Assembly: GCA_963855995.1 (NCBI GenBank)
Contig: OY979717.1
Location: forward strand, 17,277,460 to 17,341,459
DNA: 64,000 nucleotides
Direction: 5' to 3'
Origin: Muricea muricata
Lineage: Eukaryota > Cnidaria > Anthozoa > Malacalcyonacea > Plexauridae
Made by a program: the position numbers and the translations under genes. Positions within the stretch are counted from its first letter, which is position 1. Every line of letters starts with the position of its first letter. Below are positions 1,962 to 43,506 of this stretch, piece after piece. The notes under the pieces are model-generated. The model ran no database searches, was not told the DNA's origin, and saw only the letters and a program-made list of their open reading frames with translations.

Positions 1962-4900
1962 TCAGTTAGTTTGCTGAGGAAGTTCGGGCAAGCCAAATTC
2001 ATCGACTTTAATTCCATCCTATCAAAAGAAAGAAAAAAGTTAAGCAACTGTACTGTACATAAAGTTAATTTAATTTTCAAAAATACTAGCAATTACTAAA
2101 TTGGTCTGAGATACAGTACAATATGTCGTCTACTTGTAACAAGTCTAGTGTTTCGTTGGACTTTCCACTAGTTAACCAAAAATTATCCTGGGAGCAATAG
2201 TGTACAGGATTAACTACCTTCTAAAATCATAGTGTAATGCTAATAAAGTCCAGAAAAAAGATCAACAACACTTTACTTTATTTGCACTAGGCTCAGGAAG
2301 ATCGGTATTTGGAACAGTTGGCGCTTTCTCGGCCTCGTCAAGGTATGACGTATCTTCATCAAAAGCCAGGTCATCACCCAAAGCATCCAGTTCTAAAAAG
2401 ATATTGAAACTCGATATAATTTTATCTTTTATATGTCACTGACTTTGTGCTTAGTTTGAGATGTAGGACGCAATTGTCAACTCCAAATGAGAATAACATG
2501 ACAGCTAATGCAATCATAGTATTTTAAGTGTGGGTAAACGCCATAACATCGCAGAGAAACTATGGTTAAGATTCTATGGAATATATGAAAAGTAAGTTTT
2601 CTGTCGATTCAGAGATTATTGATGATGGTATTTTCGTTGAAACGGGAATGTTTACGCTTTTTGCCACAGACCATTTTAAAGATTTCGAGGGGGGGGGCAC
2701 TGCTCTTTTTACGCTTTCAGTTCTGAAAAAGATTGAAATCAATGTTCTTTTTTTCAAATACACCTAATTCAAATAAGGTTGACATCAACAATAGTCAAAT
2801 GGCAAATGTGCAATATGCATGAGCATAAAAAAATGATGGTAATAATATAGTTTTAAATAAGATCAACGCATCAGCAGCCTTGCTGGATTATAAATGTGGT
2901 ATCTATATAATGATATCTTTTACATTCGCATGTAAAGAATCATCATTCTTTTGGCACTCGATCGATCATACTGCACATTCGACTACTGTCATTGTCAACC
3001 TTAATTGAATTAGCTGTATACGTTGTATATTTTTAAGCGTACGTTGTACTTGTTCATATTAATCAGGAAGAGCAAAGATGAAAAGTTTGGCAGTGCGAAC
3101 TAGGCTACTAAGCACTACTATGTATATTATATAACAAATAATAGAAAAACATATCGTGCACAATTCACCCGTACCAGCTTCAAGATCATCTTCATCCAGT
3201 TCTGGTGTGCCGTATTGCCTTCCAAGAGCTTCTTGTACTTCATTGGCTTGGTCAAGAAGGTCTGATAAATCGTCTTGCAAGTCCTGTAGGAAAGGATGAG
3301 TGACATTGGTAAATTGCAGCCTCGCCTAGCGTGGAGCTTTCCCGTTCGTTGTCCGGCCTCGCGCGACATCCCGCGTCGTACACGCAACAGTATTTCGCGC
3401 AAGAAAAAGCAATCAGAGCGCCTGGGGACTGTAGTGTTTAAATAGTTAACATCATTCAGTCACGTGGTTTAGCGGACTAACCCGGATGACCGCATGGAAT
3501 CGGAGGTCCGCAAGCGTAGGTAAATAGTATGGCAGTCTTTCATTAAATAAAGCATCGAGTAAAACACTACATTGGCGACGAGGATGGGATCTGTCTCCAC
3601 AACAGCATGTGGTAATCCACAAAAAGAGACAACACCAAAATCGAAAAAAAATAAAGAAATATGGCAGCAGCTTTACCGAATTTTGCTGAATTTGATGTTC
3701 ACTCGGACGGGGCAGTCGATACTCGATGGAAGAAATGGCTCGCTCGTTTTCGAAATCTTCTGCTAGCATTAGCTGTAGACAACACCAAAAGACAAAGAGC
3801 TCTTTTGCTGCATTATGCTCGAGAAAGCGTGAACGAAATATTCGAAACACTGCCCGATACGGATGCTGGCGAAGACGAAAACCCATTTGAAAAGGCAGTT
3901 ACGGCTCTTACGAACTACTTTACGCCCAAAAAGAATCGAGAATACGAGGTATACGTGTTTCGTCAGGCTAAACAAGAAAGCGATGAAAGTATTGCTGCAT
4001 TCCACACTCGTCTACCAAAGCTAACTATGACCTGTGAATTTGAAAGCACGGACAGAGAAATCAAAACACAGATTGTGCAGGATTGTTTGTCGCACAAACT
4101 TCGCATGAAAGCATTACAGAATCCTGATCTAACCTTGACTCAACTCCTGGACGCTGGTGAAGTCATGGAAATGTCAAAATCTCAAGCAGACAACATCGAA
4201 GGTAAGCAAGATGTAAACAAATTGTCAAAAAAGCACAATACAAGACCCATCTCGAAGCCAAACAAGGACGGTGGACATATTGACTGGAAGTCAAGTAGTT
4301 CAAAGTCACGCGACCGGAATATCACACCCGGCGAAAGTCGCAAGTGTCGGAACTGTGGCAAAGGGTATCCACATCCGGGAGGAAAAACGTCCTGCCCTGC
4401 CTATGGAAAATCTTGCCGTGGGTGTGGCAAACAAAACCATTTTGAAGCTGCATGCAGATCCAAAAATCCTAACAAGAGAAATGACCTCAAAGCTCGAAAA
4501 TGGGACGTTCAAAACCTAGCGTATGACGACTCCAGCTCCGAAGAATCCGACGATATTGCTTATACATTCTCTGTTAGAACCACTGGGAAAAAGAAGTCGC
4601 AGCCTATGTTCCAAGTCATCGTTCATGACATTAACAATCATGGCGGACTCGGGTGCAAGTGTGAATGTGTTAGATGAAAAAGACTATCAATCGTTGACCA
4701 AGCCCCCTACGCTTCAGCAAACCAAAGTAAAAATTCACGCTCACAAGTCAAGCGAGTCCCTCACAGTTCTTGGAAAATTTACCACTATTTTAAAATTCAA
4801 ATCGACATGCGTTAAAGACAAAATCTATGTAGTCAAAGAATCCGGTGATTCGTTACAAAGCTGGAAAACTTCCCAGGACCTCGGACTATTGAAAGCAGTA

Positions 4901-7900
4901 CACCATGTTCACGACAGTAGCTCCACAAGAGTCGAGGAATTAGTAAAAGAGTATGATGAGCTATTTCATGGTCTCGGAAAGTTAAAGGGATACCAAGTAA
5001 AATTACACATTGACGAAAGTGTCAAGCCAGTTGCTCAGCCTCATCGAAGAGTTCCCTTCCACGTGCGTTAGCAGATAGAGGAACAATTAAAACGCGATGA
5101 AGACCTTGGAGTTGTGGAGCGAATCGAAGGCCCTACACCATGGGTATCCCCCATAGTGGTTGCACCCAAACCTAAATCCCCTAGACAAGTCCGCGTTTGT
5201 GTGGATCTGCGCCAGGCAAATCAAGCCATTAAACGAGAACGACACGTGACTCCCACCATCAAAGAAATCATTTGTGACTTAAACGGGGCTAAAATGTTTA
5301 GTAAGTTGGATCTTAACCAAGGGTACAACCAACTTGAGTTAGCGCCGGAATCACGGTACATCACTACATTTGGAACGTACCTTGGCTTGATGAGATACAA
5401 AAGATTGAACTTTGGCATATCAAGTGCAGGCGAAATCTTTCAAAACGTAATCCGAGAAACCCTAGAAAACATCCCAGGAACCCTTAACATTAGCGATGAC
5501 ATCTTGGTGTTTAGCAAGACACAGAGTGCCCATCATCACTCCCTTGAGGCAGTCTTTCGGCGGCTTAAAGAACGTGGCCTCACCCTCAACGAACGAAAGT
5601 GCGAGTACAGCAAAGACAAAGTAGAGTTCTTTGGCTACACCTTCTCTGGAGATGGCATCACATCAGACCCGAAAAAGATTGAAGACATCATCAACTTGCA
5701 AACTCCCACATCTGCATCTGAGGTCCGAAGCCTGTTGGGGATGACTAACTATTGTTCCAGGTTCATTCCGGATTATGCCACCAAGACAGAACCGTTACGC
5801 AAGCTTACCAATAAAGACAAACCATGGGAATGGACACCACGACACAATAGCGCAGTCAACGAGCTAAAAGATGTCCTAGTAAAGGCACCTGTCACAGCGT
5901 ACTTCGATCCAGTTAAAGACACCGAGTTGTCAGTCGATGCCAGCCCTGTTGGATTAGCAGCCATTCTCTCGCAGAAAGGTCAAGAAACCGGAACTTCCCA
6001 CATCGTCACCTATGCCAGTCGTTCTTTGACCGAGACTGAACAACGCTATAGCCAGAGTGAGCGAGAAGCCCTCGGTATTGTTTGGGCCTGCGAGAACCTG
6101 CATCTGTACATTTATGGCAAACCCCTAACCGTCTACACGGATCACAAGCCGCTAGAATCCATTTTTTGTAATCCGAGCTCTAGCCCCCCCCCCCCCCCAA
6201 ACGAATTGAGGATGGGCTCTCAGGTTACAGCCGTATCAACTTACAGTGCGTTATCGGAAAGGCGACGGAAACCCGGCAGACTACTTATCACGTCACCCTT
6301 CCAAACAGATCACCGCTGCCAGCCGAAAACAAAAAATTGCCGAAGAATATGTCAATTACATCGTCTCTACATCAACGCCCAAAGCGATGACAGTTGCAGA
6401 AATCGAAGAAGCTACCAAAGCAGATGCGACGTTACAAGCTGTATCCAAAGCAATCGAAACAGGCAACTGGTATAAAGGATCTCAGCAGTCAGGCGTAGAC
6501 ACAGCAGTTTTTGCTGCCTGGCAAAAATTGAAAAATGAACTGACCGTCGGTGTAAACCCCCAAGTAGTCCTTCGCGGGACGAGAGTAGTCGTACCCAGCA
6601 AGCTCCAACAATGCGTGGTAAACTAGGCACACGAAGGTCATCAAGGGGTCGTCAAAACCAAAACACTTTTTCGTGAGAAAGTTTGGTTCCCCAGCATTGA
6701 CCAGATGGTGGAGAAGAAAGTCCAGTCATGCTGTGCGTGTTTGGTCTCAACGCCTGAGGCTAAACGTGAACCACTATTGATGTCTCCGCTCCCAAAAGCT
6801 CCGTGGTCAGAAGTTAGCAAGGACTTCGCCGAGCTTTCGGCAAGCGAGTACCTTTCGATAATCACAGATGACTACTCAAGATATTCTGTGGTCGAAACGG
6901 TCAAATCGACGTCAGCAAATACTGTCATTCCAAAAGTTGATAAAGTTTTCTCAGAGTTTGGCATACCAGACGTGGTAAAGACGGACAACGGTCCGCCCTT
7001 CAACAGCAGTGCATTCAAATCCTTTGCCCAGACTCTTGGTTTCCAACACCGTAAAGTAACCCCTCGGTGGCCAAGAGCAAATGGGGAAGTCGAACGATTC
7101 GTAAGAACCGTGAAGAAGGTGATCAAAACCGCGAATCTTGAGCGAAAAAGTTGGAAACAGGAAATGTATCGGTGCCTAAGAAATTTCAGAGCAACTCCTC
7201 ATACAACAACAAAAATTGCGCCGGCGACTGCACTCTTCAATCGAGCAATAAAGACCAAGTTACCAGAGTTTAACGAAGGCCAACAAGCATCAACACTTGA
7301 AGAAAGTGACCGCAGGGCAAAGAAGAAAATCAAGACATATGCTGACGCGAAGGCGTATGTTCGAAAGAAGACGTCCTAATAGATACGGAGCACAGTTCCA
7401 GTGGTGAAGCTATGAACGGTTAAAACATTTACTCAATAGACACTCTACCTCTTATTCGTAATTAGAACATTTATTTTTGATGTTGCGTTAAAGCTGAATA
7501 ACATATTGCACGGCAATTATTGTCGTGTTTTGTTCAGACTTTTATCACCGAACACTTAACTAAGAATTAGTCTAACATCCAACTGACTTTCCTTTTAGTA
7601 AATTTTGGGAGGGATGTAGTGTTTAAATAGTTAATAATATTCAGTCACGTGGTTTAGCGGACTAACCAGGGTTGGTAGATTGCCTGCATAAATAAGCCAA
7701 TTTTTTAACAATGCTTATTATTTTCCTTTGTACTCGCCTTTTGTTCTCTTTGTTATTTTGATGGTACTAATGACGGTTTGGCTTATTTATTCATAAAATC
7801 TACCAACCCTGGGACTAACCCGGATGACCGCATGGAATCGGGGGCCGCAAGCGTATGTAAATAGCATGGCAGTCTTTCATTAAATAAAGCATTGAGTAAA

Positions 7901-25440: not shown

Positions 25441-28400
25441 CTACTTTTCTTCATTCAACGATTCGTAAGGCGCTACTGGGGAGTAATCCCACATTGTAGA
25501 CCAAATTGGTTCAACTTCATCGTTTCTGCGGTAACGAATTAAGAAAACAACTGTGACTACCACTACGATTATAAGGCTAAAAGATCGAAACAGTTCATCA
25601 AATCCATACTGAACCAATATCAGCCCCCCAAATAATCCGCCGATTCCTCGTCCTAGACCACCGTGCAGCGAGTGAACAATTCCTTGCAGTGTAGCTCCAA
25701 TTTTGGGAGGTGCACCAACATAACTGACGAGTGCTGCCCACACGCATGAATACGAAATTCCAGAAAGAAGTTCAATGGGCACCACCATCCAAGGTGAAAC
25801 CAAGAATGAATAATACAAGAAGGTGATCACGCTGGTCAGCATTCCAGCATAAATAACCCGAAAGTAACCGTACTTGAGTATCAGCATTGGTGAAAGATAA
25901 AAGAAGATCACCTTGGAGATACTTTGAACCGTTGTCGTGACAACAAGTATCAATGGCGTGGCACCAAGTCGAATCAAGTGTACGAATAGGAAACTGTCTG
26001 TTAATCCTGCGCCAACACCAGTAAATAACGCCAAGAACGCAAATAAGAAGTATTCAACGTTATTAAAACGTTTAATGCAATCGAAGAAGGAACAGCTGGC
26101 ATTTTCTTTTCCTTCGTAGGTTTTAAACTTGAATTTAAATGTTGTGAAAAAAGCAAGCAACAACAGAGCACAACAACTGTAGAACACCGGCTTGTATCTT
26201 TCTGCCATTTTCTCCGGACAATTATTGATCTCATCTTTCTTGGATACGGTGTAATGTAAGACACTTCCAGTTATAATAGACATCAGTCCAAACCCAACCG
26301 CAGCCCAAGCTAATTGATGTCCATATCTATACGGTTGCTTCCTCAACGTTTGCAATGTAGCAGTGTCTGCAAGGCTGAGGATTGGAGCACCGATCAGTTC
26401 AGCTGCCAACATTAGGAGTAACAGGATCAAGAATATGTGATCACGAATTTTCGTCTCTTCTGCTCGGCTATTTTGACGCGGTTCGTTCCGATAGACATCA
26501 ATTGGCCACGTGTCTTCGCCTGCTATCTCGGGTGCGTATGGCCAATATTCCTCGTATTCGCCCGCTCCCTGAAGGTATAAGATGTAAATATGTCTATTAA
26601 CTATATTTTCCTTCAGTACCATAATTGATGAAGTCAATTATTTAGTTGATAAACTAAATTAAATATATTGACCGACACTAATCAGGATTTCTGATCAGAA
26701 ATACATCGCCGGAGTAAGAATTGACAGAAAAACTTTTGATATTAATACCATGTAACTTTTGTCATTACATTCGTTGATACGAATTTTCAAGAAACTGAAA
26801 TTCATATTCATGCTTAAGAGAAATATACATAAAAATGTATCGCACTTGGTGCTTGAACACCCCCTCCCCCAGTCGTGCCCGCATTCCTTTATATACTTCT
26901 TCTGATTGTACCAACAGCAAATACGCAATCAGAGGAAAGGATTGGAAACACGGGCAAACATTTCCCACTAAAAAGACAAACATTTAGCGTGTGTTTTTAG
27001 CCTTATTACACCCAAGAAACTTGTAAAAGTCCAATAGTTAGTAATGACATTATGACATAGACATTTATTGCTGTTCTTGTTGCTGTAAATTGACAAAATG
27101 CTGGTTATGTAAATTGAACTTGCATGCAGAGTTCCATTTCAAGGAAAGTGTATCAGGCGCTTGACTGTATCAAAACTCGTCCATTCCTCCGATTGTCTAT
27201 GCATCGTTTAAAGCTAATTGGTATTAAGTTATGAGGTATTAAAATATATGTACCTGACTATTAATATTGTTGTTCTGATATAACTTTAATTTGTTTTAAA
27301 TCATTTTAGGTCGGCATATTATATGATGTTTTGTTGACAAAATGCTTAATATAGTTGTACAAATCTAGTATAGATGTCCATATTTTCGAGATTCAACTGT
27401 ATAGAAGACCCAAATTAAAACAATGCCTTGTATAGTGAAAATATATTTCCGCCAGTTCTTCGCTGGAGCCGCACATGCACGGTTTCGTGTAATTAATTTC
27501 AGAATATATACACTCTCAAGAAATTAGTAACGAGTTACTAATATAAATTCAAAGTTTCTCTCTCAATTTCCACTTCAGATGATTCGCACTTTTGAGTTCG
27601 TACTTTTAAAGTGGAAATTGAAAGAGTTATAATCTCTTATAATCAATACAGTGTTTACTTAATTGCCATGCATATCTAGTATAATTTGAATAATGTAAAT
27701 ATATAGCTAATCAATTTCATACCCGAGTAAAGTTGTCAACAGTATTCATTTTAAGCCCCTCGTCAATCTGGTGGAACTTCTCCCTGAAAATAACTTTTCC
27801 AGGAGGTAACTCTTCATCATCTTCACTAAAGTACACCGGTTTGTCTGCGAATTTTATTTTTCCTTCGTCAGATGATTCTGGAAGCAATGATCTAGACTGT
27901 TGCCGACTCAACCTGACATCATTTCTTCGGCTTACTATATTCGCCAAGTGCAGAGAAAATTCTTCCGTATTGTACACTGTTAAAGTCGGTGCTTTCCCAT
28001 TCAAATTCTCAAAATTCGTTTTGATAGTCCCAGGCGCTTTGTGTGTCGCATTGGTGCGATTTAGTCTGGTTTGAATATCACAATCTTTTGGTATTCCGTT
28101 TACGAAAGTAATCGACAGATAAACAATGATGTACGTTAAAAGACCAGTGTATAAAGTGCATTTGTACTTGTTAAATTTATCGGCGAAGCTTCCGAGCACA
28201 GGCGCCCCAAGGAAAGCGCAAAATGGTCTGATTCCCATCAATATACCGACACGACGATGATCTAACAAAAGCGAGTTTTTGTAGTACAGAGGAAGATAGG
28301 CGAACAATGATGTGGCCGCGTAAAAGAATAAGTAAAACAGTTTGTATACGACGAGTTCAGGGTCACCATACCACGAGGAACACCTTAACGACATTTTTTT

Positions 28401-28532
28401 TCTTGTTAATCCTGAGCCTTCGTCGTCTTCGGCGTTCTCAAACAGCTGTGAAATGTCATCTTTGCCATTTGTAAAGTCAGGGCTTCTTGTAAATTTAATT
28501 GGATGTAAATTTGGCGATTGCCGACCGGCCAT
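25441..28532 (-). CDS. mfsd6: MFSD6-like major facilitator transporter
   Basis: This is a two-exon gene: exon 1 is 28532-27723 and exon 2 is 26568-25441, joined in phase 0 with donor CGG|GTATGA and acceptor TTCAG|GGA, giving 645 aa. Hydrophobic segments in exon 1 (near residues 60-140) and exon 2 add up to about 11-12 membrane spans, separated by a long hydrophilic loop of about 110 residues after the third. The loop, the GIRPFCAFLGAPVLGSFAD segment and the glycine-rich LHGGLGRGIGGLFGG fit the MFS_1-like MFSD6 family; human MFSD6 is about 790 aa. Its substrate is unknown. The start ATG has a strong context (ACCATGG) and a TATA box lies 67 bases upstream. Orthology to MFSD6 rather than MFSD6L is inferred. 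Confidence 0.88.
26569..27722 (-). other. Intron of the MFSD6-like gene
   Basis: This 1,154-bp GT-AG intron has no gene inside. It includes a small inverted repeat near 27560-27625 (TCAATTTCCACTT and its complement). Open frames on the minus strand near 26700-26980 are not supported as exons. Confidence 0.75.
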
Positions 28533-28598
28533 GGTCGGTGAACGTTATGATTTATTGTAACACTGACTGTATTCGAGCATAGTTTGAACTTTCAACGG

Positions 28599-29340: not shown

Positions 29341-29933
29341 GTGTGTGCGTTTATGTTTTCGGAAATTTCGTAATAGACAGGAGCATTTCCCCGGGATAGT
29401 TTCCGGGTAGCACAATTCCGTGGACTAACATAGCGAGTACATTGTCGACAGCGTTTCCACTTTGAAGGAAATTTTCGAAGGAAATTTGAGCAAAATAAAG
29501 AAAATGAAAAGGAAATGTAATTTTGAAGGAAATTTGAAGGAAAAATATTGGTATTGCGTAAAAAATGGAATCTGCAAGATTGTTTAGCAGAAAGGATGGG
29601 TTTATAGCAAATTAGCAATAGCTGGGCAGTGTATCTGTGCTAGATGTTGCCATTTCATCATGACATTTCAGAATTCTTTGTACTTCCAGTTTCTGTACGA
29701 ATGTCTTTCATTGATTTCCGGGCATTTTAGCCTGCACACCAGCCTGAGTGACTGACTACCCTATTTTCCAGTTGCCATGACGCCACCTGCGCGCACGTCA
29801 CCCCATTGCGTCACCCGCACATTGCACAAGCTGTCAACTTGTCATGTCGAAATCGAACAGTTATTTTTGAATTTTTTGCTTCATTTCATGCGAATGTAAT
29901 TGCTTATAAACGTTTATAACATTCATTATAAGT

Positions 29934-31992
29934 ATGGATATTGATACTGATGAATCGTCTAATGACGAACTAGATGACGAAGATGCCTCCGACGACGGAA
30001 CTAAAGTAAGAAACGAAACGGCAACAGCGAAAAAACGCAAAAGACAGCAGCCTTTTATTGAAAACTGGTTACAGCTTCCACAGTTCAAGAAATGGCTCGT
30101 GAGAAGAATAGGCAAAGATCAGAAACCCAAACTGTTAACTTATTTCAATACTGGCATAACCCGACATGCAAGCAGCAAGAAACACCAAAGTCAGGAGAAA
30201 TTATCTATGTCAACAAAATCCATCAGTGACATGGTGGGTCATAGAAGTAATGATAATATCGCCAGCTCTATGGAAGTGAAAATTTGTGCATTTATAGCAG
30301 AGCATAATTTACCCTTGTCAAGTTCGGACAGTATGGTTGCATTTCTTTCTTCTATGTTTCCAAATGATGTTTCGTTAAAGAAAGTAAAACTTGGAAAGCA
30401 AAAGGCTACCAATATGCTACGTAAAGTGCTTGGCTTTGATTATCTTCAAGACGTGGTAACTTTGTCGCAGTCGAACATGTTTAGTGTCATAATTGACGAA
30501 GCTACTGATAGAAGTACACAGAGACAACTAGCAATTGTTGCTGTTTTCTTCGATTTAGACAAATTTGAGCTGCAATACTTCCTTGTAGACTTGGCTGAAA
30601 CAGAGGATGGAACTGCTTATGGGATTTATTTCAAAATGAAACAAACATTTAAAGGCTTGAACACTCCTATTACTAACATAGTCGGTTTTTCTTCGGACAC
30701 AACAAATGTGATGTTTGGACAAAACCACTCCATCTCTCAGTTGCTCAAATGTGAAATCAGTTATGTCCAACTTGTTAAATGTTCCTGTCATCTAATCCAC
30801 CTAGTGTCCTCACAATATGCTTTAAAGCTACCAAAAACGGTCGAGGACCTATGCAGAGACATACTTGCTCATTTTCACAGGTCTTCAAAAAGACAAGACA
30901 CATTCAAAGAATTTCAATCTTTCTTTGAAATTGAACCACATAAGTTATTGTCTCCAGCACAGACCCGATGGCTTTCCTTACAAGAATGTGTCAGTCGTCT
31001 ATTAGAGCAGTATTAAGCCTTAAAACACTATTTTATCTTTGTAGCCAATGACGACCCGTCTCACACAAATGACAGAATCCTTGCTTCACTTCAAAATTGA
31101 TTCATTCAAGCATACTTAGAATTTTAAGTTATCAACTTGAACGATTAAATGGATTTAATCGTTTATTCCAAAGCAAATACCCTCTTCTTCACTCCTTAAA
31201 AACAGAAGTTGAAAAACTCGTTAAGTCAATTGCCAGTGATTTTATGGATATCCCTACCATAAAAAAATGCAAGCTTAGGATATTGACCCTATGAACACTG
31301 AACTGCATATTCCTTTACATCAAGTTTACGTCGGACTGGAAGCTTCAGCTACTCTTCAGGAAATTAAAGAGGGTGCAAGCAAAGAAGAAATTGAGAAATT
31401 TTTAACAAGTTGCAAGAATTTCTTAATTGAATGCATTCTGCAAATCCAAAAACGTTTTGACCTGAAAGCAGAATATCATGAAATTGTCGAGTGTCGTTTG
31501 CCTAGCATCGCTGCTTCATTGACACCAAGATCACTAAAGGGCATTTGTGAGAAGCTGCCTTACCTATGCAACATTCTTGATCTAGGGAAGCTAGATATGG
31601 AATGGAGGCAACAAGCCCTTGAAGAAAAGTCTGGTGCAGATCTTCAGTGGTGTGATTATTGAAAGATTATTCGAGATTGTAAGACGACAACTGGAGAACC
31701 TTATGAAATTTGTTGGGATACTGCTATCGGTACCTTTTTCAAATGTATCGGTTCAAAGAATTTTAGCCAGCTTAAGTTTGTAAAAACACATCACAGAAGC
31801 AACCTGAAATCTACCTCACTAACTTCACTTCTTCAAAGTAAAATGGCAATGAAAAATGGACACTACTGTGCTACCAGTCTTAAACCAGACAAGAAATTAT
31901 TGGGGCTAGCATCTGTAATGAAGCCCAATGCAACTGATGAAGAAGTAAAAATGCTAAGGAAGGATTTCCTTAGCAAACTGAAGAGTGACTGA
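29934..31992 (+). pseudogene. hAT-like transposase, broken
   Basis: The first open frame (29934-31016, 360 aa) begins with an acidic, lysine-rich tail. It then has a remnant of a TTF/BED-like zinc finger whose histidine part (RHASSKKHQ) is present but whose CxxC part is missing. The hAT catalytic region follows: IIDEATDRS (D188), FSSDTTNVM (D255), CSCHLIHL near 283, and QTRWLSL near 343. The frame stops at 31014-31016, but homologous-looking coding sequence continues in pieces at 31097-31294, 31291-31662 and to about 31992 (KDFLSKLKSD). Several stops and shifts make it non-functional. No terminal inverted repeats were found, so it may be an isolated or domesticated-then-lost copy. Confidence 0.72.
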
Positions 31993-34440: not shown

Positions 34441-34578
34441 GCCTACTCTGGGCCCCAATGTCGCCTAATATCGCCTAATATCGCCCAATATCGCCTAATG
34501 TCGCCCAATATCGCCTAATGTCGCCCAATATCGCCTATTATCGCCTAATATTGCCTATTATTACCTGACATCCCCTAA
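34441..34578 (+). repeat. AATATCGCCY minisatellite, copy 1
   Basis: About twelve imperfect 10-bp units AATATCGCCY follow AGGCCTACTCTGGGCCCCAA. The array decays towards its right end. An inverted partner with the same unit and the same flank is at 48780-48933. Confidence 0.85.
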
Positions 34579-34987
34579 TACTGCTTATGTTACTTGGGAG
34601 TGGAGAAGGTTGGTCAGTCACTTGGTTATGGTTTACGATAATATACTAACACTTGTGTCAATAGTACTCTTTTTGCTATGAGTGTGTAATTGTTTACAGA
34701 CCTTGGCTAAGGCAGCTGTCTCTCTTTTAGAGCACAGTGATGATTACCACAAGGAGTACCATTTTTCATACATTTCACTTCACTCTATTAAGGCCCATGA
34801 CTTGCCAATTGTGCTGCATATTTTTTGTGAAAGCAATTACATTTGAATTTTGGTTACACCAACTATATAGACAGAGTCTGAAATGTTATCTAGCTGTATT
34901 ACCAATACTAATAGTAGACCATAGTAATACAGCTAGAGAATCAGGTTTTGCAATCAAATATGGTACCATGCCTCAAGGTATGATTGT
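34579..34987. other. No gene recognised
   Basis: The plus-strand open frame at 34737-35024 runs into the terminal repeat of the next element and has no known domain. Confidence 0.3.
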
Positions 34988-35050
34988 CCATAGGCGGCCC
35001 AATTCAGTGTGTAGTTTCATATAGAGATCAGTGCGCACTACTTTTTACTT

Positions 35051-35240
35051 AACAAATAGATTTCATTTTTGCGTGCGTCTGTACTGTAATAGATCACAGA
35101 TGACGTCATAGCGTGTGAAGAACAAAAAAGTACGCACGAGACGCAGTCGAGTGCGTGACTTTTTGTTCTTCACACGCTATGGCGTCATCTGTGATCTATT
35201 ACAGTGCAGAAGCACAAAAAAATGAAATCTATTTGTTTTA
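35051..35240. repeat. 190-bp palindrome inside the TIR element
   Basis: Inverted arms of about 85 bp share AACAAATAGATTTCATTTTT at the outer edge and GTGTGAAGAACAAAAAAGT near the centre. It could be a nested MITE or part of the host element. Confidence 0.75.
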
Positions 35241-35398
35241 TGTTATAATAAAGTTGACAAAAATCATGCGAAGACCCGCGAAATAAATTAGCTAAATTAG
35301 ATCACGCCATCAGCTGACGTCATCCGTGCGTGTGTACTTTAATAACACACAGCTCGCGACCAATGAAAATGCAGAATGAACACGTATTATTATATAAA

Positions 35399-36051
35399 TT
35401 ATTATATAAATATCCTAAGGCTGGCAACTCTTTTACAGTAATAAACTGACACATATTAGACTTTCGCTTCAAACAAAAAAATTGTGTTAATTTACCGCAA
35501 AAAAACTAGATACAAATGATCTTAGATATCTCTTCTACATTTGTAGATAGTTTTTAGACAAAAACAAGATTCGAAAATACGTAAATTTGTTCAATAAAAA
35601 GTGTTTTTGATCAAAATTTTCCGTGTAGATAGGCGGGATGCAAAGTGCCCTACAAACGTCATCTTCGGAAATGACTTCGGCTAAGCAAATCTAAGCTCCT
35701 ATTGGTTGCTATTGAATTCGTCTTTTCTTCGGCGTTTCCGAGTGCTCATCAGCCAATAGCAGCTTAGCCGAAGTCATTTCCGAAGATGACGTTTGTAGGG
35801 CACTTTGCATCCCGCCTATCTACACGGAAAATTGTGATCAAAAACACTTTTTATTGAACAAATTTACGTATTTTCGAATCTTGTTTTTGTCTAAAAACTA
35901 TCTACAAATGTAGAAGAGATATCTAGGATCATTTGTATCTAGTCTTTTTGCGGTAAATTAACACAATTTTTTTGTTTGAAGCGAAAGTCTAACATGTGTC
36001 AGTTTATTACTGTAAAAGAGTGGCCAGCCTTAGGATATTTATATAATAATG
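35399..36051. mobile_element. Foldback (snapback) element, copy 2
   Basis: This 650-bp near-perfect palindrome is of the same family as 20530-21262. The arms run from ATATAAATATCCTAAGGCTGG to the centre near 35725 and are more alike here than in copy 1, suggesting this copy is younger or gene-converted. The left edge carries a short duplicated TTATTATATAAA. Confidence 0.78.
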
Positions 36052-36766
36052 TATGAACAGTGCTGCCAGATGAAATCTCAAAATATTCATGTATGCTTAC
36101 GCCAAAAGTTCACAAAAAGTTCATGTCCCTAAATTTTAAGATCGAAACTCGTCGGAATTTATTGGAGATCGTCTGAAAATGTCGGAACTTATCAATATGT
36201 CCGAAAATCCTTCACAGACTATGTTTAAATGCTAAATAAATTGCTGAAAGAATTCTGTTTTAAAATTGTATTTAAAAAACAGGAGTGTCATTAGACTATA
36301 TTTTTATGCGAGCAAATCCATTATCATCGCTACTATTGCTTTCCGACCAATCCGAGATTTTGATTTTTTAAAAACACAGCGAACAGCACAAAAAAGGCGG
36401 GAAATTTAATTTAACATAAATTATACAAATTGTGTTCTATACTTCTATTATGGCACCTATTGTTTCTTACAGCCACTTCAAGTCTGCAAGACATATTTCT
36501 AAACATATTACGGGTTTTTTAGTTGAATCATTGAACATTTTCATCTTGAAAAAATGAAAATATCAAAGTTCATGGAATTGTTCATGACATTTTAAAAAGT
36601 TCACAAAAAGTTCACAAATTTTCAATGTTCAAAAAAAGTTCATGCAGAGGGTAAAAAGTTCACAAATTTGTGAACTTTGTTCACGATCTGGCAACACTGT
36701 GTATGAAGCAGTGCGCACTGAACTCTATATGAAACTACACACTGAATTGGGCCGTCTATGGATTGT

Positions 36767-37513
36767 CATGCATTCCTAATATCAGTAATATATATCCAAT
36801 TTATTATCACTATAAAACAGGGCTGTAAGCATCATTTTTGCATGTTTTCAAGTAGAAAACGAAAGGTTAAGTTAACAAGGCAATTGATTTCATCTATTAT
36901 TTGAAATGCATTTCATATTTGACATTTTGATCAAGCATGTTTAAACAAAGTAACGAAAATTTGATCTGCTATTAATTAATATGTACAGTACTCACCTGAT
37001 CTATTAAGTTGCGCTTTATATTACATTGATGCACTGGATTCAAATGAATTGTCTGTTTCAAATATTTTACGGTTATGCCCAATTGATGGGCCATGTTTAT
37101 TTCAACTGAAAGAATTTTTTTATAACACACTTCCCTCAGAAATTACGGAACTTAGGGTCCTTTTCAGGCTTTTCTCACACACGGGGGCTGGTTGGGTTTA
37201 ATTTTCAGGAACCTTGTAGTCCTGTGGAGGGATAGCAGGCATCTGTGGAGGGGAACACCTTTTTACAAAATATAAACTGCTGATTTTAATGAATACATAA
37301 ACGAGCACAGCTCAGTTATTATTAACTGATTATTATTATTGCCAATGCCTGTTAATATAAATCTGGATAAAGATCATAACAGAAAAACACAGAAGTAAGA
37401 TTTGCCAAATATACAGTATTGTTTATGAATTATGCAATTCAATTAGGCAAGTATTATTGAGACTGGTGATAGAGTTATGTCACATCTGCCCTGATTGGTC
37501 AGAAGTGTGTTTA
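36767..37513. other. No gene recognised
   Basis: AT-rich, non-coding. It could be the interior of the element whose terminal repeat lies at 37514-37551. Confidence 0.3.
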
Positions 37514-37551
37514 TGTGCGCACTGATCTCTATATGAAAGTACACACTGAAT

Positions 37552-37627
37552 CCACGCTTCACGCGATCTGTCTGTGGGGGGTAACACGTGTCCACGCAAA
37601 GCAACTTTTCGGACAAACAAATCAGCA
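37552..37627 (+). repeat. Left terminal inverted repeat (76 bp)
   Basis: It begins CCACGCTTCACGCGATCTG and contains CACGTGTCCACGC. It matches the reverse complement of 43429-43504 with two mismatches. The nuclease gene's ATG lies 109 bases inside, so the promoter is probably in or next to this repeat. Confidence 0.95.
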
Positions 37628-37735
37628 TATTACATAAAATACTATTAGGAAATATGTAATCACGTCCGTTTGTCGTTGTATCTCTCTGCTTTGAAATATG
37701 TAAAATCCAAACAACTGCGAGAAAAAGGTTCAATC

Positions 37736-40700
37736 ATGAGTACTCAAAATAAAAAAATTAAAGATATGACGATGTTGGAACTGAAAGAGTATCTTCAAGC
37801 TCGCGGCGTTACTGTAACTGGCTATTTGAAGCCTGCTTTGGTAGAAATAGCGAATGCTGTACAAAAGATGATGCTCCCCCTCGATCCGAACTTTGAATGC
37901 CGTGACGATTCGGAAAGAAAATTAATTATTCATGAAAACGAAATCGAAGACCCCTTTGTGAACTCTCACGATGCGCTTGACTATTTTAATGACTCCCCAC
38001 CGTTCGGACTTTATGATATATTCAATCATCTAATTTACCACACCACAGATTACGACAAACAAGGTCTCGCCGCGTACAAATCTTTCGACGACTATCGCCT
38101 TTTTGAGGAAGGTTATGTAGAATCCTTACGGACTAAGAAATTAGCTGCAGAAGGAGTCCATTTGTATATTGATAGGGTCAGACCCACTATGAAAGAAAAA
38201 ACTAACCAAGGCAAAAAATTCTATGACCTTTGGTTTATTTTAGAAGGGACGGGTCCAAATAGAGGGAGCGTGTTGAAAGCGAAATGTCGTAGTAAAGGTG
38301 GGCAAGATGGAGGGTGCAAGCATATTGCGGCTACAATGTATTCTCTCGAAGAGACGCTTAATACTCGTGACAAGGACAGCGTAACAAGTGCACCATGTAA
38401 GTGGGTAAAAAGACCAACGGCAAGTAGTAAACCATGCGAGATAAAAGACCTTGTCATTGGTCACCAAAATTCGCCTACAAAGAGAAAGAATGTTAAAGAA
38501 TCAATTAGTAACTCAAAGGTTCAAAATAAAAAAAAGGAAATCTGGCTTTCATGTTTATTGTGAAAACATGGAAGTGGACGTAAGAAATGAAGAAGATAGA
38601 AATCCCCCAAGTCCAGAGTCTTGTACAAAGTTTATTCAGTCATTATCTGCAGATGGTTTCAAAAAACCAGTTTTGCTTCCTTTGTTGCAAAAGATATACC
38701 TGCCTAGTGCTGGAACACAAAGTAATGTGGAAATAGACAGCATTAAAGAGAGCATTGGAGGGTCAGATGTTAATAGCATTAAAGAAGAAGTTGGTTGTGA
38801 ACACAAAGAAAATTGCCCAACAAAAGCCAGAATTAAAGATGATGAGAGCACTACAGTGAAAGTAAATTGTGAAGTCCCTATAATGAAAAAGAAGCTGGAA
38901 GACTTGCTCAATGAAAATGATAATGATGTCGAAAGAGTTTCAAGTAATATCAAAAATGGCAATTTATTTTTTACCACAGAAGAAATAGAGTCCACCAGCA
39001 GTAGTACATTAAAGCAATGGAGATGCAAAGAATGGTTTATTCAAAAGTCTGGTTTTATCTCTGCATCAAAAGCCAAGAGAATACATTCAATTCAAACCAG
39101 TTTGGAACAAGGCAAAAATAGAGATGTCAGCAAAGTTGTTACAGAAATTGTTCACCCAACCATCCCACCCTATTCATCCTCTCTCCCAGAACAACCAAAG
39201 AATGCCTGTGATTGGGGGCTAAAGCATGAACAAAGTGCCAGACATGCATACCAAACAATTGAAAAGAAGCAGCATCATAACTTAAAACTTCATTCAAAGG
39301 GCTTTCTCATTTCAAATAGAAAACCTTTTCTAGGGGCAAGTGTTGATGACATCAAGACATGCTCATGTAGAGATTGCCACCCAGTTGTGATTGAATACAA
39401 ATGTCCTTGGAAGCATAAGGAAAAATCAGCAAAAGAAGCCTTCCTGACACCAGAAGTTGGTGGAAAACAGGTTGGAGACAGCTTCCTTTTGAAACCAACA
39501 TCAAGATATTATCACCAAGTGCAACTACAAATGTTTGTGTGTAACTTAATGTTGTGCCATTTGGTGGTTTGGACAAAGCTTGGTGTGTTTGTTGTCAAAG
39601 TGCCATTCAATGAAAATTTTATGAATTCAGTTACTGCTAAATTAGAGGTGTTCTGGATATCCCATATATTACCCAAGATGATGCTTGAGATTCAAGTGAC
39701 TGCAGGCTTGGACACTACAACACTGACAGGTAAAAATTCATTTATTTATAACATTTATGCTTCACTCTGCTATTTATTAAAATCCTTTTTCTTTGAATTA
39801 ATAAGATGTTCCATCTCAAAATGAAAACCCTGATGATTCTCAAATACTGCCAAAGGATATGAATAATCTGCTCAGCTTACAACACCAGCAACAAGAAGTA
39901 TTAATATTTTGGGAGTAGATATCTACCAGGAACGCATTGATGGCCTTCTTCCTCGCTCAATGGTCAATGATAATATTGTTTCATATCTACTCGAGTAAGT
40001 AAAACTGAATTCGCATGCACATATAGCTACAAAGATTTGAAAATGTTTATTTTCTGTGCATATGTTACATGTTGATTTTGACAATTTTAGACAAGTAAGA
40101 TGCATTTTTCCTGTGATAAGTACATTCTTTTTCACTGCATTATCTGGTGAACAGGAAAAAAAGAAACTTTCTAGGTATAAAAATTCCTTAGCTCTTTTTG
40201 CAATGTTTCACAGAAACAAACAAATTGTTACTGACATTCTGTTCATTTATCATACACTAAACAGATATGAAAGAAACAGTACTGCTGAGATGTTCTTTAA
40301 GCCCCATTTATTGTTGGATGAATACATATTTATTCCTATAAATAGAAGGTGATTAATGCTGGTTGATCAATAATAAATGTTGTCAGTGATGTGCATGTAC
40401 CATTATGTTGAGTATTATGATAAACTTATATGTATTATATCTGGGTTTTTTCTGTCACCTGTTATGTAGGCATCATTGGTTATTGGTTACATTGACCCCA
40501 TGGTAAATAGATAATTACAATTATTGCTTTGTTTTGTCTGATGCTTACATGATCTTTCTCAGTGAAATGCAAAGCTGGTTAAATATGTTGTTTGTTACTC
40601 TAAAACCCTACCATCTTACAGGCATATAATTCTAATGGATTCTCTCACATGGGATGTTGCAAGCCGAAGAATTGAAATTAGTCTGATTTTTAAGTAAGTG

Positions 40701-41274
40701 GACAAATTAGGTTTTTGATTGTTATTAATGTTTAGTCCAATACCTTGCTTACTATTTTTATTTTGTAGTTACCTGATTCGCTTAACTGAAAAATATGCAC
40801 TTCCAAATAAACACCAAAACATGGAAGTCAAGGTTTTGAAGGTGTGGTATTTAATTTTAAATGAAGGTTTTATTTTGTCTAAGCATATTTGGTAATTGTT
40901 AGAAATTACCAATAATCATAATTGTGTGTTTAGGTCCCACAGCAAGAACCTAATAGCAACAACTGTGGAATTTATGTTGTAAAGTTTGTGAAATATTTTA
41001 TTCAGGTACTGTACATAAAGTGCATATTTTGTAGTAATGTTGTACAGGCTGTTTACAAGCACAAAAGTTTGAAAATGTCATTTACCTTATATAACATTTT
41101 CAACTCATCATTAAACACCATTCCATACTAATTTGATTTCAGGAGTTGGATATGTATGAGTCAGCACCAGAAGAATATTGTACCAAAGAACACAAATGGT
41201 TCAAACACGCAGATGCAGAAGAAAAACGCAAGACAACAAGATCCTTTTTGCTGAGTAGAATGTTGCACAAATAA
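37736..41274 (+). CDS. SAP-SWIM-YqaJ nuclease fused to Ulp1 (C48) protease
   Basis: Exons: 37736-39729, 39806 (or 39889)-39994, 40091-40174, 40265-40348, 40470-40502, 40622-40693, 40769-40841, 40934-41004, 41143-41274; GT-AG throughout. Domains in order: SAP-like helix pair (near 37766-37860), SWIM-like zinc motif (CRS...GCKH, 38285-38322), YqaJ exonuclease with GASVDD (39333), IEYKCPW (39389) and YYHQVQLQMF, then a Ulp1/SENP-type cysteine protease: RSMVNDNIVSYLL, HHWLLV (His), ILMDS (Asp), QQEPNSNNCGIYV (Gln, Cys at 40964). The frame shifts by one base in an A8 run (38528-38535). Starting exon 2 at 39806 also gives a stop; acceptor 39888/39889 restores the frame. The ATG at 37736 has A at -3. 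The copy is probably disabled by the A8 indel, or this is a sequencing error. The protease role is inferred. Confidence 0.85.
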
Positions 41275-41351
41275 TAATGTACATAATTTATTCAATTATT
41301 CAATATTTACACTGCATCTAAAATTCAAGAGCAACATGTATTAAAATGTTT
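41275..41351. other. 77-bp gap between convergent transposon genes
   Basis: It holds AATAAA on the minus strand at 41287-41292, a likely poly(A) signal for the transposase gene. Both transcripts probably overlap here. Confidence 0.5.
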
Positions 41352-43381
41352 TTACTCATCTCCAAATTCATCACTGCTATTGTCATCAATAAAACCATCA
41401 TCACCACCATCTGTCTCTTGGTCAAATATACTTGGCTGTAAATTTACCACAGCTGCACACACTTTGAGAACCGAACTCAGGTATGGTTTGCACGATAATG
41501 GGATCACACCTCTTAGAAAGCAGAAGCATTTCAGTTTTCTTATTATGCGTTCCACGTGAATCCTTACCTTCGCTATTCGTCTTGTGGCTGTAGCTGCTTT
41601 AGCATTAATGCAGCCTTTTTTCATAATCGGTGGTGCAAGAAGTCTTGTTTGATGTATTGCTAATAAGTCTTGCATGTTAAACCCTTTATCAGCCATGATC
41701 ACATCACCTGGGTTTAATAGCTGAAGAAAACCACTCTGTCTTACTATTTCTTTGTCACTAATACTTCCTGTGTATAGCTTGGAGATGAAATTAATATGCA
41801 GGAGTGGAGATATTGAAATAAGTGCTTTAAATGTATTTCTGGACTTATATGAACTATAGGTAGATCTTTGCGAAGCTACTCTGAACGGCGTTTCAATGTA
41901 GAATTCAGTGCAGTCAATAATTCCACGAAGATTGCTGAAACTTTGAAAAGGCTTGGGAACTCGTAAGTCTGACATTTCTTCAACAGTTGAAAAGGGAAGC
42001 AAAAACGTGAGCTCTTCTTTCAAGAACATAATCCACGAAATGAAAATCCTGCTGGCAGATCCTCTTGATATGCCAAAAATGTCTGCCAGCATAATTATGC
42101 TAGGTGCACGCTTTAACCTCACAAGGACCATGATCATTTGCTCCATCACTGTCAACTTATTGAATGCATATTTATGCTGGAATTGAAAAAAAAAATCATC
42201 GAGATGATAAGTGACCCAACATTATAAAGAAAATCAAATGATCATATTTGTGCATGTAATTTTATCACCTTTAAATAGTGATTTTTCACACTGTTATTTC
42301 TTGTCATTTTTGTTCCTTTCCATGTGTATAGCCTGGATGCCTTTTCTTTGATTAATTCAAAAAGAGAAAGAAACACCTGCCTCTCAAGACCTACAAAAAA
42401 ATATGTAAATGAAAATTACAATCATGTTACAGTACCAGAAAATATCTTTTACTGTGATTTTTAAATAGTGGTATATAAAAATATAAATGAACACCAAGTG
42501 AACAGGATGCTACAATTTCAGAAACATTGGATATGAAAGATACCTGTATAATGACAAGTTTTTTTGGGATCCATAATCACTTCCACAAACAATGTCCTTC
42601 TCATGTTATTCTTGTTAGTCAGTGACATATCTGTGTAAGGACTCAGGTGACTTGTCTCAATGGTAGTCTATTGAAGACAAGAAATGCATAAACTATAAAG
42701 TAAGTCACTAATGTCTGAGCGCAGAGAAGAAATATATTTACCTGAGTTTCATTGTTGACTATTGTACGAATATCATCGGTTGTAGAACTGAGAGCTTCCT
42801 TCTCGTGCTGGCTTGAATCTGAGCATATGGCTTTGGCTGAACCATCCTCATTGCTTGACTCGACAACACAACCATCGTGAGTTTTCACTGTTCTGGTATT
42901 CGACAACAATAACAACGCATCTGCAGCCGAATTTTCGTCTGTTCTGCGGATTCGTTTTGGTATTTGTGCCCGCTTCGTTGGTGATTTTCGCTTTCGACCC
43001 AATCTCACAATCTGTAATAGTTTATATTTGAACAAATATTTGATAATGGAATAAGTACTCTACTTTTCGTTCAGAATATTAAAAATATTTTAATCTATAA
43101 ATAGCTACCTTTTCTTCACTGGCATTTGCTGGAAAAGGATTTGGGTTCTCTTTTGTTGGTCCTTGTTGGCCAATGAAATGTAGACTGCATATATAGCTGT
43201 CCTTTTTACATTTGAAAGTATCACCTCGACAGCATGCCCTAATCCATGTTTCTCTCCTTTCCTTGAACTTTTTTACCGATGGGAAACTGTGAAAGCTTAT
43301 AATTTTGCCATCTTCCGTTTGCAGCCTTTCCGGATAATGACTATCGGTTTTACAAGTGCCCCAAGAGCACCGTTTGACCAT
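41352..43381 (-). CDS. THAP-domain DDE transposase of the ISL2EU-type element
   Basis: Five exons: 43381-43109, 43011-42742, 42667-42544, 42390-42269, 42176-41352. All are GT-AG with consistent phases and give 537 aa without an internal stop. Exon 1 is a THAP zinc finger (CSWGTC near residue 5, W in ETWIRACC, YICSLHF) for binding the terminal repeats. Exon 2 is a basic, serine-rich linker. Exons 3-5 contain a helix-turn-helix-like part (SIIMLADIFGISRGSASRIF) and the DDE_Tnp_4 nuclease: D351 in IIDCTEF, D426 in MADKGF, E472 in HVERIIRKLK. The tail is acidic. The start ATG lies 48 bases inside the right terminal repeat, so the promoter is likely within it. All catalytic residues are present, so it looks competent. 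Confidence 0.92.
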
Positions 43382-43428
43382 TATAAAGTCGCATACAAAC
43401 TATACAAAACCTATTAAACGTTCTACTT

Positions 43429-43504
43429 TGCTGATTTGTTTGTCCGAAAAGTTGCTTTGCGTGGACACGTGTTACCCCTCGCAGACAGATCGCGTGAAGC
43501 GTGG
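43429..43504 (-). repeat. Right terminal inverted repeat (76 bp)
   Basis: This is the reverse complement of 37552-37627 apart from two bases. It abuts the AT target duplication at 43505-43506. Confidence 0.95.
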
Positions 43505-43506
43505 AT

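Follow-up and report, generated by a model that had tools for sequence, protein, structure and literature searches.

The element and its second gene

The window, by which is meant the whole stretch of 64,000 nucleotides from the cnidarian Muricea muricata that was analysed (contig OY979717.1), contains a transposon with two convergent genes, namely a minus-strand transposase and a plus-strand gene in which SAP-like, SWIM-like and YqaJ nuclease parts are, on our reading of the sequence, followed by eight exons encoding a protease (Table 1). Passages of a published account of ISL2EU elements, which belong to the PHIS superfamily, give as their features an AT duplication in A|AT|T, a THAP-HTH-DDE transposase, a YqaJ gene, inverted repeats of 6-259 bp that usually start with GG, and an average length of approximately 4840 bp, and state that the job of the second gene is unknown (PMC4482050). 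The assignment to this group in the initial annotation was borne out, since the window element has the AT duplication, the transposase with all three domains, the YqaJ gene, and inverted repeats of 81 bp, within the published range. The element differs in being 5953 bp long and in its ends, which read CCACGC...GCGTGG (CC...GG) and thereby lack the GG start that the literature states as usual but not as required. Moreover, its YqaJ gene does not end with the nuclease but extends through the spliced exons of an Ulp1-family protease, by profile score nearest to SENP7 and Ulp2. The AT duplication with flanking A and T fits in three of the four near-full copies (window, L010 and L011), and the left flank of the fourth (L012) is GT.

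Table 1. Features of the ISL2EU element, its genes and the related empty sites, in window positions
Feature	Position	Strand	Remarks
ISL2EU element	37552-43504		5953 bp
AT target-site duplication, left copy	37550..37551		within A|AT|T; basis: empty sites in the same window
AT target-site duplication, right copy	43505..43506
Left terminal inverted repeat	37552..37632	+	81 bp, 77/81 matching
Right terminal inverted repeat	43424..43504	-	81 bp
Paralogous empty target site	36732..36761	+	single AT; 3 mismatches/30
Second paralogous empty target site	34988..35017	-	single AT; 2 mismatches/30
Exon 1 (SAP-like, SWIM-like, YqaJ)	37736..39729	+	one frame change near 38.5 kb in the window copy
SAP-like DNA-binding motif	37757..37846	+	E 0.0079, 16.3 bits; Pfam cut-off 23.9
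SWIM-like zinc motif	38267..38347	+	position taken from L011 match; under cut-off
YqaJ nuclease domain with D...ExK	39030..39542	+	PF09588, E 1.2e-12
Exon 2, linker and protease start	39806..39994	+	extent from sister copies
Protease exon 3	40091..40174	+
Protease exon 4	40265..40348	+
Protease exon 5	40470..40502	+	catalytic His
Protease exon 6	40622..40693	+	catalytic Asp
Protease exon 7	40769..40841	+
Protease exon 8	40934..41005	+	Gln and Cys
Protease exon 9	41143..41274	+	includes stop
Transposase DDE_Tnp_4 domain	41442..41918	-	Pfam E 1.2e-39
Transposase HTH_Tnp_4	42006..42161	-	Pfam E 6e-12
Transposase THAP domain	43166..43369	-	Pfam E 3.6e-10

The initial annotation had read a YqaJ domain followed by exons of an Ulp1/SENP-type protease, and this agrees with the profile searches, in which the spliced downstream exons matched Peptidase_C48 (PF02902, E 3.6e-14, 53.5 bits, cut-off 20.7) with the motifs HW, MDS, PQQ and NNCG, holding His, Asp, Gln and Cys, in that order; matches in three other families also exceeded the curated cut-off (46.3-59.2 bits). 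Splicing was read from the sequence, and as first described, GT/AG is found at every junction with matching phases. Two details had to be revised. An exon start had been placed at 39889, but in L010 and L012 the exon opens at 39806 and its frame continues directly into the protease; in the window copy the later start stays in frame only through a short change in length. The frame had been taken as intact, but besides the shift in exon 1 there is a second break near 39.86 kb. The proposed DNA-binding motifs stand in part: SWIM exceeds the Pfam cut-off in family L037, but in the window family both motifs fall below it. SAP did so wherever it was scored (16.3 and 12.9 bits versus 23.9), and SWIM did so in L011 and L049.

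Nuclease and protease in one gene

The window element has two copies that are 99% identical over its whole length (L010 and L011) and one that is 97% identical (L012), as well as partial copies (L013-L015). Each of the four near-full members of this family carries at least one lesion, which in exon 1 of the window copy is the frame change between the SWIM-like and YqaJ parts. The counterpart of this exon in L011 is a single 664-aa frame, and in L010 the spliced frame, with 8 introns removed, has no interruption between the YqaJ region and the stop of the protease. The intron that links the two parts is in phase 1 in three families (that of the window, L032-L034 and L037), as read by eye, the spliced alignment having placed it oddly in L032, L033 and L037. 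In L032 no Met lies between the linking intron and the protease domain, so that a separate start is not conserved. A separate downstream protease gene was rejected on these two grounds, the conserved linking intron and the lack of a conserved start, and it is nearly certain, judged from the sequence, that nuclease and SUMO-type protease are joined in one gene.

Recurrence of the fusion in the genome

In the 453-Mb, 74-contig assembly, at least 17 of the best 150 of at least 151 YqaJ places are followed within 6 kb by an Ulp1 match on the same strand, compared with one that has it upstream on the same strand, one downstream on the other strand and none upstream on the other strand for the same list. 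The window element and its near copies account for four of the 17 pairs. The Ulp1 matches counted comprised full lists of 55, 120 and 47, plus 27 of 102, and 17 is a lower bound because the exons of the spliced fusion, here called type B, are short and the YqaJ places are the best 150 of at least 151. Chance or a mix-up of paralogues was rejected on the recurrence of the fusion together with the orientation control.

Nine further loci (L032, L033, L034, L035, L037, L048, L049, L050 and L051) combine YqaJ with protease exons and with a transposase in convergent orientation. At L036 both protease exons and transposase are present, with the YqaJ match absent from the fetched stretch, and L052 has YqaJ and protease, with the transposase match absent from its fetched stretch. 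The search for further genomic copies thus found the type B fusion in seven families of this genome, in our own grouping from sequence identities: the window family, L032-L034, L035/L036/L052, L037, L048/L049, L050 and L051. A separate place, G000:C1:37266864-37270261, pairs a YqaJ match with a type B Ulp1 match that lies downstream of it but on the other strand, and is a rearranged or different element.

Conservation of the type B fusion

All seven protease introns lie at the same codon and in the same phase, with no stops and no frameshifts, in L010, L032, L037, L048 and L049, which are five of the nine spliced-aligned loci and span four families. Six of the seven introns are kept in L050 and in L051, the latter with one frameshift, and five and four are kept in the degenerate loci L035 and L052, respectively. 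The spliced alignments of L033, L034 and L036 carry lesions; overall, the alignments of L033-L036, L051 and L052 show stops, breaks in frame, gaps or unusual introns, and all of these except L051 count as degenerate support. The catalytic His, Asp, Gln and Cys are retained in all seven loci compared, and in the nine-locus spliced alignment the Asp is missing from L052, and the motif in L050 is PRQ.

Between four families (window, L032-L034, L035 and L037), protease pN is 0.32-0.35 versus a pS of 0.75-0.85, and a like contrast is seen at the YqaJ end. Within the L032 family, protease dN/dS is 0.35-0.65, a range consistent with copies that decay once inserted. Mean protein identity between the seven families is 44% for the protease and 46% for YqaJ. 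Family distances of the protease correlate weakly with those of YqaJ (rho 0.49, from 21 non-independent pairs) and not significantly with those of the transposase (rho 0.30). At the YqaJ active site, E and K are present in 12 of 12 rows and D in 11; the window copy has D, E and K, and the exception is L010, which has Glu at the Asp position. Open copies include L049, where YqaJ lies in an open frame of 644 aa that also gives a SWIM match below the cut-off, and where the spliced protease is open (C48 E 1.5e-12).

Given its recurrence in related families in the same spliced form, the fusion looks like a working part of the transposon. The lesions in the four near-full copies of the window family and the dN/dS within the L032 family count against a working role.

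Relatives of the protease

The solved relatives of the window protease product are SENP7, Ulp2, SENP5, Ulp1 and SENP2. The type B profile found its best solved structures in SENP7 and Ulp2 (E 2.5e-13 to 4.3e-13), SENP7 standing at 2.5e-13 versus 5.5e-8 for SENP2 in a ranking by score, not by tree. It has the same catalytic order as the SUMO-chain proteases SENP6, SENP7 and Ulp2, and differs from them in being a predicted protease within a transposon protein that also has nuclease and DNA-binding-like parts. Single-protein genome searches pointed to no host SENP gene as its source. A viral origin was considered and set aside, as two scans of a collection of viral contigs with the A2 and A1 protease alignments returned no relative.

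A second YqaJ-Ulp1 architecture

A different arrangement, called type A, is represented by L029, an uninterrupted, intronless 931-aa frame with YqaJ (E 3.7e-13), a Cys-rich stretch and C48 (E 5.5e-6), and with THAP and DDE_Tnp_4 on the opposite strand. In L030, the counterpart of the Cys-rich stretch gives a single PHD-type match, below the cut-off, and a second finger was read by eye. Six relatives have broken frames (L030, L031, L038, L039, L040 and L044). A transposase match was found at two of the seven loci (L029 and L031), was absent across 8.3 kb of L030, and was not found in the remaining four stretches, which are short. Protease dN/dS is 0.08-0.10 for L029 versus L030, L038 and L039. 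The nearest solved proteins are SENP1 and some bacterial proteases. The type A protease was modelled with AlphaFold, but the model was poor (mean pLDDT 52.4), and hence no claim on the fold is made.

In trees of YqaJ and DDE, types A and B each form one clade, separate from each other; these trees have 23 and 14 rows with long-branch warnings, cover loci of this genome with L048-L052 left out, and include type A by two rows in the transposase tree. Comparison of the A1 and A2 protease alignments with hhalign gave a probability of 3.3 and an E of 0.013. A common origin of both protease types was rejected on the basis of this comparison, the differing nearest solved proteins and the separate clades, and the sequences suggest that types A and B are probably two separate protease gains, with one early gain common to both as a lesser possibility.

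The Ulp1 of L029 shares 39-43% identity with the Ulp1 of three MULE transposons of this genome (L043, L045 and L046), which carry SWIM (below the cut-off in L046) and Ulp1. They differ from type A in having a MULE transposase and in that no YqaJ match was found in the fetched stretches. The type A module may have come from such MULEs. L046 also has a PHD match below the cut-off. In L041 (731-1792 and 2574-3615), a DUF4371 match below the cut-off lies upstream of a PHD-Ulp1 module, with no YqaJ match found, and such a module may be present in other types of transposon as well.

Besides both fusions, the genome holds ISL2EU families with transposase and YqaJ but no protease. At the eight best YqaJ places (L001-L008), tblastn at 1e-3 found no protease within 1.5 kb beyond YqaJ, and in five of them (L002-L006) the approximately 345-392 nt between the YqaJ and transposase matches are too short for a protease domain. 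The plain arrangement therefore coexists here with both fusions, and transposition need not require the protease.

Relation to known systems

Ulp1 domains have been described, in passages of a report on other transposons, at the C-terminus of the Ginger1 transposase and in Mutator elements, with a PHD in one Ginger1 family (PMC2836005). The elements described here have in common with Ginger1 and Mutator that a cut-and-paste transposon carries Ulp1, sometimes with PHD, but the protease is here on the nuclease partner in another superfamily, and the DDE transposase is on the other strand.

The initial annotation cited no earlier description of such a fusion, and this is in line with the ISL2EU literature searched by word, in the portions covered by the search, where Ulp1 is nowhere mentioned and the genes given are the transposase and YqaJ only. 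Main texts naming both ISL2EU and YqaJ mention neither Ulp1 nor a protease. No co-mention of YqaJ and C48 was found, and broader searches gave nothing among the matches listed. The co-mention of YqaJ, Ulp1 and transposon concerned Mimiviridae, by title, and that of YqaJ and SUMO concerned African swine fever virus. The literature was the scope of these searches, with Repbase and protein databases outside it, and the YqaJ-Ulp1 fusion may already be catalogued there. What appears to be new here is the protease on the ISL2EU YqaJ gene, Ulp1 on other transposons being already known.

Proposed role and alternatives

The explanation preferred here, given a probability of about 0.5, is that the second gene of these ISL2EU elements encodes one protein, with SAP/SWIM-like parts, a YqaJ nuclease of the lambda-exonuclease kind and a SENP7/Ulp2-like protease at the C-terminus, that would act at DNA breaks. 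The DDE transposase would cut at A|AT|T, and the SAP/SWIM-YqaJ part would sit at the broken ends, where the nuclease may bind, trim or guard them. The tethered protease would then strip SUMO, probably in the form of chains, from proteins assembling at the break, so that repair factors would not be removed too early and excision or insertion could be completed. SENP6 and SENP7, which are related to Ulp2, are described in parts of a published paper as clearing long SUMO2/3 chains and as acting in double-strand-break repair and chromatin relaxation (PMC11088880). A repair role has already been proposed for the Ulp1 and OTU domains of other transposons, in the portion of that report concerned (PMC2836005). 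The weak or non-significant correlations of family distances and the Glu at the YqaJ Asp position of L010 count against the break-site explanation, and the role at breaks, taken by itself, is proposed at slightly less than even odds. More tentative is the generalisation that ISL2EU gained a SUMO protease on its nuclease protein at least twice (spliced and SENP7/Ulp2-like; intronless, PHD-linked and SENP1-like) because end processing with local deSUMOylation would be a general way to steer host repair. DeSUMOylation, at breaks or of silencers, is the function that we infer.

Silencing is the subject of the main rival, in which the DNA-bound fusion would de-SUMOylate host repressors on the element and keep the transposon expressed, with SUMO-dependent heterochromatin or piRNA-guided silencing, and not repair, as the target. 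SUMO takes part in animal piRNA silencing. SUMOylated KAP1 in heterochromatin is named as a SENP7 substrate in the passages cited above (PMC11088880), and sections of another study propose removal of silencing marks by TET/JBP enzymes of fungal transposons (PMC12730594). As the union with an end-processing nuclease is more readily explained by a role in repair, this rival is considered rather unlikely, albeit a serious contender.

Viral cysteine proteases related to Ulp1 process their own viral proteins, and this precedent speaks for self-regulation, in which the protease would act on the SUMOylated transposase of the element or would cleave the fusion and free the nuclease; the translated linker exon of L010 contains no diglycine, and such a role appears improbable. 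Equally improbable is that the gene gives two products, the YqaJ frame reading through the first donor to yield nuclease alone and the protease exons belonging to an alternative transcript. The unspliced window frame does stop approximately 31 codons past the donor, but the phase of the linking intron is common to three families, a separate conserved start is absent, and type A L029 is a single uninterrupted frame. That the protease is a captured fragment of a host SENP-like gene riding along without a role would suit the damaged window copy and the dN/dS within the L032 family, but is very unlikely in view of the constraint between four families, the conserved introns and the second, apparently separate gain in type A.

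A protease on the second gene hints that the partner protein may act where SUMO controls chromatin or break repair, a hint that rests on the conserved protease, its apparent gain in two clades and its presence on MULEs of the same genome. Open-frame copies for each part exist in the genome, which makes expression and enzyme assays feasible.

Other features of the window

Nested inverted repeats occupy 34975-36774, with pairs of arms at 35394-35686/35762-36054 (98%), 35051-35142/35146-35237 (89%) and 34975-35048/36701-36774 (86%); the ISL2EU element inserted into a sequence similar to the outer unit. By eye, short tandem repeats of the ATCGCCTAAT kind can be seen at 34454-34570. Genes resembling those of an LTR retroelement lie in several frames at 3655-7379 on the plus strand, comprising a PNMA-like gag (below the cut-off), reverse transcriptase, RNase H and integrase. 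At 25441-28544 on the minus strand, MFS_1_like transporter matches in two frames likely mark a host gene. Finally, 29910-31992 on the plus strand contains long open frames, the first without a Pfam match at E 0.01, which resemble a hAT-type transposase.
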